Assembly: GCA_019359695.1 (NCBI GenBank)
Contig: JAHHGV010000013.1
Span: 1-64,000, forward strand
Direction: 5' to 3'
Source: Brasilonema angustatum HA4187-MV1
Lineage (GTDB): Bacteria; Cyanobacteriota; Cyanobacteriia; Cyanobacteriales; Nostocaceae
DNA: 64,000 bases
Shown here: piece by piece, positions 61,808-64,000 of the stretch
Layout of the letters: the number at the start of each line of letters is the position of its first letter
How positions within the stretch are numbered: the stretch's first letter is position 1
Program-made: the position numbers and the translations under genes
Notes under the pieces: generated by a model
Seen by the model: the letters and a program-made list of their open reading frames with translations, nothing else
What the model was told of the DNA's origin: nothing
The model's database searches: none

Positions 61808-62539
61808 TTAACTTTTGCCTTCGTCAGCCGGGAAAAACTCTTTCGTTTTTCGGGAGTATTTCCAAGCAACTCCATCTGGATCCCTGCTGCGACTCCACTC
61901 TGGAAAATCGGGATCGTCCCGCCGCTTATAAACTGTGCTGGAATAAACATTGAGACGTTTGGCAAGTTCAGATTGAATCAAAGAACCAAACATCAATTGT
62001 TTTTCCAGCGGTTTTTTTGCTTCCTCTTGAGTTGGCTGAGGTAGCGGTTCGGTTTCTAGTTCTTGTAAAACTGGCTGGGGTGTTGGTGCTACTAGAAACG
62101 GTAGTGCTTGCTGGGCAACTGGTTGACTTTCAAGTTGTTTGGGTGGTTCGCTACTGTCAAGTATGCTGCCTAGAGTACTCGCGGTGATAAATTGATAGAC
62201 TTTGCTTCCGTCTTCGGAGTTAACCGCGCTGGCAGCAAATTCCGATGCTTTCGTATCTAGGTAGCGTTTTGCTCTTTCCCCAGGAAAATTGCCCTTGATT
62301 GCCAAATCCATTGGTGTAATCTTGCCTTGGTTTTCCCGAATCAGTTGATGGAAAATCGGGTTTACCTTCTGGCACCACTTTTGCCATGTGTAAAGTTGCC
62401 AGACATTGAAAGCCAACACAAGTAGGATTAGTGCCAGCCAAATTCGCCAAGTAGCAACGACGAAAATAATTAAAAACGAGATTGGCAAAAGTAGAACTAG
62501 AAAACCCTTGCCGTCACTTTCTATAGTTTTTTCACTCAT
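61808..62539 (-). CDS. Membrane-anchored protein with possible DNA-binding C-terminus
   Basis: Start chosen at ATG 62539 (MSEKTIESDG); an upstream in-frame ATG (62590) would add 17 residues. 243 residues: two adjacent membrane helices (FLVLLLPISFLIIFVVATW and IWLALILLVLAFNVWQLYTW, about 11-50), a linker rich in Pro and Gln, and a C-terminal part SLIQSELAKRLNVYSSTVYK followed by RRDDPDFPEWSRSRDPDGVA that looks like a helix-turn-helix with a wing. Function unknown. Confidence 0.6.
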   Translation of the reverse strand: MSEKTIESDGKGFLVLLLPISFLIIFVVATWRIWLALILLVLAFNVWQLYTWQKWCQKVNPIFHQLIRENQGKITPMDLAIKGNFPGERAKRYLDTKASEFAASAVNSEDGSKVYQFITASTLGSILDSSEPPKQLESQPVAQQALPFLVAPTPQPVLQELETEPLPQPTQEEAKKPLEKQLMFGSLIQSELAKRLNVYSSTVYKRRDDPDFPEWSRSRDPDGVAWKYSRKTKEFFPADEGKS

Positions 62540-62738
62540 GCCGATAACTGCCAAGTGACTGTGTGTGGAAATAATAATATATCTTGGCAAAAATTGGGAA
62601 CATTATTTGTGTTATTCGTCAGTTTGCCAAAAAAGATTTCGGCAAAACCGAATAGAAGCTATAAGTTTCTCCTCCCAAAGCCCCTTGTGTGATGTGTGGA
62701 GAGATATAAAGTTATGAGAAAATTTTTTACCCCAGCCC

Positions 62739-62767
62739 TTGACATTATATAATACATATACTACATT
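62739..62767 (+). promoter_or_regulatory. Candidate sigma-70-type promoter upstream of the tRNA-like RNA
   Basis: TTGACA (62739-62744) is a perfect -35 box, followed after 17 bp by TACATT (62762-62767), a four-of-six -10 box. The implied start near 62774 lies about 126 nt before the tRNA-like RNA, so a 5' leader would have to be removed, as in tRNA processing. TATAAT at 62748-62753 is an alternative -10 lacking a -35 box. Confidence 0.35.
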
Positions 62768-62847
62768 ATAAATAACAAGCACATGCTTATAAAAAATTCA
62801 ATTTTCAGGCGTGGAGAATGCGTTAAAAATTAAAAACGTTTCTTCTG

Positions 62848-62894
62848 ATTTTGAATTTTGTTAGCGCAGCGGGACGCAGTCCATTTTGAATTTT
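62848..62894. repeat. 47-bp dispersed repeat, copy 2 (identical to 21257-21303)
   Basis: The same 47 bases as at 21257-21303, ending five bases before the tRNA-like RNA gene. Since it separates the candidate promoter from the RNA, it would be part of the 5' leader. Confidence 0.85.
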
Positions 62895-62899
62895 ACTTG

Positions 62900-63021
62900 T
62901 GGCGGGTAGCTCAGTTGGTAGAGCGCCAATATCCTTATTCAACTCTTGCCTGAAAAGGACGAAGAATGAGGGTTATCGTTTGAAGCACGGGAGGTCGCAG
63001 GTTCAAATCCTGCCCCGCCAC
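62900..63021 (+). ncRNA. tRNA-like RNA with a Ro-binding arm: candidate cyanobacterial Y RNA
   Basis: Acceptor arms TGGCGGG (62900-62906) and CCCGCCA (63014-63020) pair fully. The D-arm is GCTC-AGTTGGTA-GAGC (62909-62924) with the GG of the elbow, and the T-arm GCAGG-TTCAAAT-CCTGC (62997-63013) is canonical. Between them, 72 nt replace the usual roughly 24-nt anticodon region. These form a 10-bp stem (62931-62940 with 62964-62973) carrying a hairpin CUUGCCU-GAAA-AGGACGAAG (62945-62964). There, CC pairs with GG, A62959 bulges, and CGA faces UUG. The same bulged helix (GUC-C-GAAG against CUUGAC) is the Ro-binding site of vertebrate Y RNAs. The Ro60 gene begins 37 bp downstream. No anticodon stem can be drawn, so it cannot serve as an ordinary tRNA. 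Intron or pseudogene alternatives are less likely. Confidence 0.75.
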
Positions 63022-63058
63022 CTTCCATTTTTGCCTGCAAAGGCTGGGAGAGAAAGCC

Positions 63059-64000
63059 GTGAATTACAAATTCTTTACTCAAAAAAAGACAGCAACGCCG
63101 CAGACTCAGCCTATCCCTGGACAAGAAGCCCAGATGATCCAAGGACGTTCTGGTGGTTGGATGTTCGATGCTGATGTTTGGAAGATGCTGCAGCGTTGTT
63201 TGCTGATTGGCACGGCAAAAAGCACTTATTATGCGGGCAAAAATGAATTGACAGAAGATTTTGTTGAGGTGATAAGACAGGCGATCGCCGAAGATCCTCA
63301 GCGAGTCGCACAAGAAATCCTTTCTGCCAGCGATGGACGCGCCATTAACAACAGTGCGCCTATTCTTGCGCTGGTTCTACTGTCGATGGGTGAGTCGCCA
63401 GAAGCCAAAAAAGCATTTGGTGAAATTTTCCCGCAAGTTGTCCGCACAGGCAGCCATTTTTACGAATGGCTGAACTACACTAAGTCTTTGCGGGGATTTG
63501 GTAAAGTTGTACGCGAAGCTGGAAAAAATTGGTTTTTACGGGAAGATGTTAAGGGTTTGGCTTACCAGTTGCTGAAGTACCAGCAACGTTATGACTTCTC
63601 CAACCGAGATGCTTTGCGGCTGTTCCATGTCAAACCACCTACAGAAGATCATCAACAACTGTTTGAGTGGGTAGTCAAAGGATGGGAAGTCTTGCCAACA
63701 GAAATCCCATCTGCGGCGTTAGCACAGATTTGGTGGTATGAGTGGCTCAAGCGCAATCCAGATCAGACTCACGAAGCTATTGTCCAAGGACGCCTAACCC
63801 ATGAAATGGCTGCACCTGTGGGCAAGATGGATAAATCTGCTTGGCAGTTGCTGTTTAACGAAATGCCAATTGGTGCATTGTTGCGTAACTTAGGTTCACT
63901 CACTGAAATCGGTGTTTTAACATCTGATGAACTTGTCAACTTGCAGCGAGTTGAAGCGGTTCTCAACAACAAAGAACATTTGCGTAAAAGTCGCATTCAT
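63059..64000 (+). CDS. rsr: Ro60 / TROVE-domain protein (Rsr), 3' end beyond window
   Basis: GTG at 63059, after GGGAGAGAAAGCC, opens a frame that runs to the window end (314 codons, no stop). The start NYKFFTQKKTATPQTQPIPG, then GRSGGWMFDADVWKMLQRCL, LIGTAKSTYYAGKNELTED and SDGRAINNSAPILALVLLSM, match the Ro60 family. The TROVE domain is a ring of HEAT-like helical repeats that binds misfolded RNA ends in its hole and Y RNA outside. The C-terminal vWA domain lies beyond the window. In other bacteria Rsr works with Y RNA and polynucleotide phosphorylase in RNA decay or rRNA maturation. The tRNA-like RNA just upstream on the same strand is the likely Y RNA. Confidence 0.93.
   Translation, partial: MNYKFFTQKKTATPQTQPIPGQEAQMIQGRSGGWMFDADVWKMLQRCLLIGTAKSTYYAGKNELTEDFVEVIRQAIAEDPQRVAQEILSASDGRAINNSAPILALVLLSMGESPEAKKAFGEIFPQVVRTGSHFYEWLNYTKSLRGFGKVVREAGKNWFLREDVKGLAYQLLKYQQRYDFSNRDALRLFHVKPPTEDHQQLFEWVVKGWEVLPTEIPSAALAQIWWYEWLKRNPDQTHEAIVQGRLTHEMAAPVGKMDKSAWQLLFNEMPIGALLRNLGSLTEIGVLTSDELVNLQRVEAVLNNKEHLRKSRIH

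Follow-up and report, generated by a model that had tools for sequence, protein, structure and literature searches.

The use of bacterial Y RNAs, which mimic tRNAs, is unclear. Chen is said to have reported Y RNAs in 2014 near Ro60 in over 250 species, which may include cyanobacterial ones; in the literature searched, whose coverage did not extend to the primary bacterial Y RNA papers, no description of cyanobacterial Y RNAs of the kind presented here was found. YrlA (RF02553), known from Salmonella, Mycobacterium, and others, is encoded beside the Ro60 gene, and its Rfam model starts and ends in the Ro60 stem, between whose strands come a T arm, a closed acceptor-like hairpin, and a D arm in that order. 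Passages of two papers state that the ends of YrlA form the Ro60 stem (PMC8394870) and that its superposition on tRNA involves a circular permutation (PMC11472068). The Ro60 site of Y RNAs is described, in parts of PMC4726728 and PMC4030889, as a stem in which one strand has a bulged C and the other a bulge of its own; the animal Y RNAs (RF00019) and the Y RNA of D. radiodurans, all partners of Ro60, have such a stem.

The window (the whole stretch of DNA that was analyzed, 64,000 nt) ends within a Ro60 (TROVE) gene that is preceded by a candidate Y RNA on a tRNA body. The features below draw on A1, an alignment of 59 distinct copies that belong to the commonest class and come from 37 loci, and on R1, a covariance model of relatives that has the window copy among its 59 rows.

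62739..62767, + strand: promoter-like TTGACA-17-TACATT, candidate start of a transcript with the RNA and the Ro60 gene (consensus scan, 10/12 matches)
62899..63021, + strand: tRNA-bodied candidate Y RNA, 123 nt including G-1 and C73 (R1 137.5 bits; Rfam tRNA 47.6 bits; upstream of TROVE in 42/45 loci)
62899..62906, + strand: acceptor stem, 5′ strand, 8 bp with G-1; pairs with 63014-63021
62909..62924, + strand: D arm (D stem 62909-62912/62921-62924)
62926..62927, + strand: anticodon stem positions 27-28 (C27-C28), 5′ of the module; pair with 62990-62991
62928..62976, + strand: putative Ro60-binding module, 49 nt (alignment A1, pair counts, RNAalifold, single-sequence fold)
62931-62940/62964-62973, + strand: basal helix of the module, which also has an asymmetric internal loop
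62945-62962, + strand: module tip, CUUGCCU (62945-62951), GAAA tetraloop (62952-62955), and AGGACGA (62956-62962)
62977..62991, + strand: remainder of the anticodon arm, with CGU at 29-31, the 7-nt loop UUGAAGC (GAA at the anticodon position), and ACGGG at 39-43
62997..63013, + strand: T arm (T stem 62997-63001/63009-63013)
63014..63021, + strand: acceptor stem, 3′ strand, with C73; CCA not encoded in the window copy
63022..63058, + strand: Ro60 mRNA leader; hairpin GCCU-GCAA-AGGC at 63033-63044 (102 distinct leaders; fold)
63046-63050, + strand: Shine-Dalgarno-like GGGAG, which can pair with CUUCC at 63022-63026
63059..64000, continuing to about 64660 in window numbering, + strand: Ro60 (Rsr, TROVE), GTG start, 533 aa (PF05731, profile)

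A tRNA body in true strand order

The Rfam tRNA model (RF00005) spans 62900-63021 at full length with 47.6 bits (cut-off 29, E 7e-9); the cloverleaf thus scores above the cut-off despite a long insert that the model leaves undescribed. This match bears out the acceptor stem, D arm, and T arm that an earlier note had recognized at the locus. Without G-1, the acceptor stem comprises 62900-62906/63014-63020, and G62899 can also pair with C63021 to give an 8-bp stem. The same note had placed 72 nt where the anticodon arm should be. The interval between the D and T arms is indeed 72 nt (62925-62996), but the anticodon arm is contained in it rather than replaced, being split by the 49-nt module, which is inserted within the anticodon stem between tRNA positions 28 and 29. 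The uninterrupted anticodon arm and stable anticodon of a tRNA are absent, with the arm split by the module and 20 anticodons among the 59 copies. ARAGORN made no call at 62899-63021 and only one in the window, a tRNA-Ser elsewhere. An ordinary tRNA was rejected on the ARAGORN, Rfam, and pairing evidence. R1 scored 137.5 bits at this site; the next site in the 8.5-Mb genome (46.9 bits) is an ordinary tRNA, and the window RNA is far beyond chance. As previously noted, the RNA ends 37 bp before the GTG of the same-strand gene (63022-63058, then GTG at 63059), which gives it the adjacency to a Ro60 gene expected of a Y RNA. The promoter scan upstream was weak, with 8 sites in this AT-rich region vs 1.3 in shuffles.

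The earlier note had proposed running Rfam models on the interval, and only the tRNA model matched: YrlA gave no match in 62500-63500 even at E values as high as 10, and the Y RNA, group I intron, and tmRNA models gave none in the window. The window RNA nevertheless shares with YrlA its place beside a Ro60 gene, tRNA T- and D-arm sequences (GGUUCGA and GUAGCUCA..GGUAGAGC), and a candidate Ro60 stem in which one strand bears CUUG and the other has GA immediately beyond the stem (Rfam consensus). In YrlA, the ends pair in the Ro60 stem and the T arm precedes the D arm, whereas the ends of the window RNA pair as a tRNA acceptor (100% in 59 sequences) and its order is D arm (62909-62924), module, anticodon arm, T arm (62997-63013). 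Also unlike YrlA, the candidate Ro60 stem is closed by a GNRA loop and an anticodon arm is present. The window RNA is a circularly permuted counterpart of YrlA, in true tRNA order, and strand order and model match place it outside RF02553. YrlA-like hits were found in the same phylum beside more canonical TROVE genes (L106, 47.6 bits; L107, 42.7; L102, 38.4; L104, 26.4), all below the family cut-off of 69, so both openings occur among relatives. The more canonical TROVE genes of L104, L105, and L107 lie within clusters of ordinary tRNA genes.

Other RNAs offer partial likenesses. In animal Y RNAs, the Ro60 site has the form CUUGAC/GGUCCGA; their ends lie in the Ro60 stem and they have no tRNA cloverleaf, whereas the two strands are swapped in order in the window RNA. 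Cyanobacterial tRNA genes that bear group I introns are likewise interrupted in the anticodon arm, but the 49-nt module lacks the intron core and the anticodon is not kept; with no Rfam match either, a group I intron was rejected. In tmRNA, another RNA takes the place of the anticodon arm and is joined to a tRNA-like end. The window RNA differs in having no reading frame or tag and in its partner gene, Ro60, and tmRNA, which had no Rfam match, was rejected as well.

PF05731 matched the window part of the neighboring gene with E 1.5e-12. A profile of 23 relatives aligned nearly full length with D. radiodurans Rsr (2nvo, 1.8e-87) and Xenopus Ro60 (1yvp, 2e-87), and because of these sequence profiles the gene is identified as encoding a full-length Ro60. 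The AlphaFold model of the TROVE protein has a mean pLDDT of 80.7 and a pTM of 0.82. H187 of Ro60 is essential for contact with Y RNA according to a passage of PMC4030889, and its equivalent here, H190 (aligned by profile alignment and counted by hand), is invariant in 23 sequences. By this comparison the Y-RNA-contacting surface is conserved on the protein, and binding of the RNA by Ro60 is predicted.

Covariation and association with TROVE genes

The structure tested on A1 comprised an 8-bp acceptor stem (with G-1:C73), the D arm, an anticodon stem split into 27-28 and 29-31, the module, and the T arm. Cells were paired at 98.3%, and sliding the partners gave at most 52%. Both-side changes were present in 15/37 pairs (7.8 in shuffles), and the covariation score of 0.232, against 0.128 in shuffles, was reached by 0/500 of them; a measure of further pair types did not exceed shuffles (32 vs 32.6). 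All 8 acceptor pairs are 100% paired in the 59 sequences, 5 of them with both-side changes. The D arm has 97.9% of its cells paired and both-side changes in 3/4 pairs, and the T arm is 100% paired in the 59 sequences. The strongest new pairs are 28:42 and 31:39. Pairs 27:43 and 28:42 are both formed in 59/59, the latter as CG in 35 and UA in 24, and 31:39 is paired in 59/59 as CG (28), AU (19), UA (11), or GC (1). Pair 29:41 fails in 12/59, where position 29 may come from before the module. The split anticodon stem covaries across the module.

Without a supplied structure, RNAalifold returned the acceptor, D arm, T arm, module, and pairs 30-31:39-40, and so the same arms as the tested structure except for the 27-28 pairs and single end pairs. 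When the whole window RNA was folded alone, the D arm was absent from the best structure and 11/200 shuffles folded equally well; the window module folded alone as expected (z -2.87, 0/200 shuffles as good). The insert is conserved across the 59-copy alignment, as the Y RNA reading in the earlier note would have it. The compensatory changes looked for there fall mostly in the tRNA body and split anticodon stem, with few inside the insert itself: the basal helix is nearly invariant, with both-side changes in 0/9 pairs, and the apical helix has them in 2/6. Covariation is thin inside the module because the module hardly varies (mean column conservation 0.92), and with so few both-side changes the module rests mainly on conservation.

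Pfam TROVE was present in 45/99 sampled family genomes. A locus script that required an acceptor stem, T arm, D arm, and the motif GGUUAUCG recovered 95 copies in 42/45 loci, all upstream of TROVE on the same strand and 37-1590 bp from the coding match; CCA is encoded in 50/95. Ten loci hold one copy, 13 two, 17 three, and 2 four, and the arrays may be longer since most loci were taken only to about 700 bp upstream of the gene. Two of the three copy-less loci have shortened TROVE genes: in G030, tblastn covers residues 252-533 only, and G028 has an 83-aa frame matching model positions 300-351. The third, G085, has an intact TROVE gene with the leader hairpin and no such RNA in the 2.4 kb available upstream. 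In one covariance model search over the 99 family genomes, tallied by eye, long R1 matches at E 1e-8 or better occurred in 42/45 TROVE-positive and 0/54 TROVE-negative genomes (Fisher 9e-25). The best TROVE-negative matches were ordinary tRNAs (5e-8) and, in G024, a single 126-nt copy (1.2e-7) with a 120-aa TROVE remnant downstream of it. Arrays with no TROVE on their contig stretch were found in G076 (L094) and G032 (L095). The L038 region G000:C60:28784-28954 has an Rfam tRNA match of 34.8 bits and no ARAGORN call, possibly an odd or decaying tRNA.

The upstream position recurs outside the family, where 11 genomes had TROVE: R1 matched all 9 of the loci fetched, 6 from other families of the order and 3 of the class, with the remaining two genomes not among the fetched loci. 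Six TROVE loci from the phylum's other classes showed no full-length module match, and neither did G211 (L104), the sole family genome with a more canonical TROVE. A strict pattern scan of 84,980 species returned 92 stretches; by title, 79 of the 80 listed were recognized as cyanobacterial. The exception is a Candidatus Gracilibacteria MAG (L184, JAAUUT010000009.1), with the module pattern and a TROVE gene, either a transfer or possibly a mis-binned contig. TROVE was present in 68/80 listed stretches, and their 137 pattern matches all lie on the TROVE strand (130 upstream, 6 downstream within 1.5 kb, and 1 farther). The 12 listed stretches without TROVE hold 19 matches, and many of these stretches end close to the match. 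The strict pattern recovers 67 copies in 33/45 loci and hence misses some; its 0 matches in viral contigs are accordingly no proof against viral carriage.

The module and the anticodon loop

The apical consensus of the module is CUUGCCU-GNRA-AGGCCGA. The CUUG...CGA elements of the Ro60 site in Y RNAs are present, with a GNRA tetraloop as the cap, and the same letters occur in the Rfam YrlA consensus with the two strands in the opposite order (GGCGA...CUUGUCGCC). Column 68 is C in 59/59, and 8/59, including the window copy, have an A beside it, so either C or A may be bulged. The module is not confined to one site of the tRNA. In 22 copies, identified by best 5-bp stem fit, with the stem wholly on one side and one assignment doubtful, it replaces the anticodon loop; in 23/45 loci, a downstream copy 50-182 bp past the TROVE match has it in the place of the D arm. 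These downstream copies (L051, L052, L066, L043, and 19 other loci) have the acceptor GGCGGGU/ACCCGCC, an anticodon-like hairpin, and a T arm. At L041:147, L057:11, L056:147, and L078:1604 (starts, TROVE strand), the module strands are reordered inside the tRNA body, a further permutation. The module thus moves among tRNA positions yet stays beside Ro60 genes, behaving as a binding module and not as an intron, and is predicted to be the Ro60-binding part.

Comparison establishes the anatomy, the conservation, the covariation, the link to Ro60 genes, the Ro60-site elements, and the conserved protein surface. On these sequence-based grounds, the RNA is probably a Y RNA of the neighboring Ro60, formed by a tRNA in normal strand order with a predicted Ro60-binding stem set into its anticodon stem. 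The Y RNA reading proposed earlier is thereby supported by Rfam, synteny, conservation, and compensatory changes, to which the retained anticodon arm, a permutation reverse to that of YrlA, tandem arrays on varied tRNA bodies, and a leader hairpin that copies the module tip are new additions.

Variation is greatest in the anticodon loop, whose mean column conservation is 0.54 vs 0.87-0.92 elsewhere. There are 20 anticodon kinds in the 59 copies and 16 when only the type A copy nearest TROVE in each of 37 loci is counted; across three species of the window's genus, 3/4 variable alignment columns fall in this loop. U33 is kept in 58/59 and a purine at 37 in 56/59. At positions 32, 37, and 38, the loops gave 94 agreements with ordinary tRNA loops of the same anticodon (67.2 shuffle mean, 0/2000). 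The 34 distinct loops gave 47 vs 35.5 (p 0.0045), and exact loop matches among them were not significant (p 0.084). The agreement implies that the loops derive from, or are kept like, true tRNA loops. The tRNA of this genome closest to the excised body matches it poorly (score 51.4 for 73 nt), which gives no sign of recent copying from a resident tRNA. The drift of the anticodon, together with an ordinary tRNA-Phe(GAA) in this genome, makes decoding by these RNAs unlikely. The U-turn loop may have been kept for a nuclease, for a modifying enzyme, or simply for folding.

A loop that varies most and yet keeps U33 and tRNA-like positions 37-38 could be an exchangeable bait, offered to anticodon nucleases to spare real tRNAs or to signal damage via Ro60. 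Arrays with up to four bodies per locus would suit such a decoy or sensor, and a passage of PMC7790460 proposes a competitive-inhibitor role for the tRNA-like part of YrlA. That source also found no YrlA fragments after nuclease activation. Drift under little constraint would look alike, and copies whose anticodon loop has given way to the module have none of this kind to offer; this function is unlikely.

Alternatively, the module could be an intron, excised by an unknown endonuclease plus RtcB or otherwise, with joining of the ends to give a working tRNA, here with anticodon GAA. ARAGORN called 58/59 copies as tRNA once the module was removed and 0/59 with it in place, and such splicing would account for the covariation across the module and for U33, the purine at 37, and loop positions that follow same-anticodon tRNAs. 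RtcB was found in 45/45 TROVE-positive and 42/54 other genomes (p 4e-4), but in this genome it lies on another contig, so RtcB linkage is not used as support. The rtcB matches in many family genomes (e.g., G067:C1, G041:C2, and G037:C160) are split into two stretches about 0.3-1 kb apart and look intein- or intron-like. An intron reading does not fit anticodons that drift at one place, with 16 kinds in 37 loci and most within-genus variation in the loop, or the AGG anticodon of 7/59 copies, which is absent from the detected tRNAs of this genome. A tRNA-Phe(GAA) is already present in this genome, the Rfam group I intron model found nothing, and excision cannot restore tRNAs from the 22 loop-replacing copies or from the D-arm-replacing copies of 23/45 loci. 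An intron is therefore very unlikely. An ordinary tRNA in decay, or a remnant beside TROVE that resembles a tRNA by chance, would agree with the missing ARAGORN call and missing CCA in the window copy, but has practically no chance of being correct, being refuted as an account of the RNA family by 59 distinct relatives with 98.3% paired cells and by the strict TROVE association.

The Ro60 leader and a candidate feedback loop

The leader between the RNA and the Ro60 gene contains a hairpin that copies the tip of the module, beside the ribosome-binding site. Among 102 distinct TROVE leaders, from loci in which the TROVE match begins no more than 45 residues from the start of the query, the pattern is UUUUGCC[C/U]-GNRA-[A/G]GGC[C/U]GGGAG or a close variant. 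A strict rule (UU, 4-bp stem, GNRA loop, and G at the second base after) held for 78/102 leaders and 1/2040 shuffled leaders, and a Shine-Dalgarno-like word directly follows the stem in 95/102. In the fold of the window leader, GGGAG pairs with the CUUCC immediately 3′ of the RNA end. Leader fold energy is not unusual for the composition in the window (z -0.96); the L066 leader gave z -2.06.

These features of the Y RNA and leader suggest a working scheme. Ro60 would bind the CUUG/CGA internal loop of the module, and the tRNA half would be matured at its ends by tRNA enzymes, RNase P and tRNase Z. That half may act as a handle bringing Ro60 to an effector such as PNPase, or as a cover of Ro60's RNA entry, as in YrlA; the link to PNPase is by analogy only. 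Release of the RNA 3′ end would leave a Ro60 mRNA starting at the leader hairpin. By binding this hairpin, spare Ro60 could switch off its own production until newly made Y RNA titrates it away. The leader thus suggests Ro60 autoregulation, titrated by Y RNA and possibly coupled to tRNase Z release.

A broader proposal, doubtful at present, is that complete tRNAs are displayed on Ro60 as bait or sensors for enzymes of the anticodon loop, that the leader hairpin couples Ro60 synthesis to free RNA, and that YrlA and these RNAs are two openings of one ancestral tRNA-Y fold. A Y RNA that follows tRNA order, has the ends of a tRNA, and in many copies encodes CCA would be expected to mature through tRNA enzymes. 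It also offers a simple view of the origin of YrlA, as one fold opened at either of two ends. A module set into varied tRNA bodies and positions would be a natural domain swap, with the Ro60 site and the handle set apart. The leader hairpin would provide a direct, testable feedback loop for Ro60, a medically relevant autoantigen, and many of the carriers are culturable Nostoc species.
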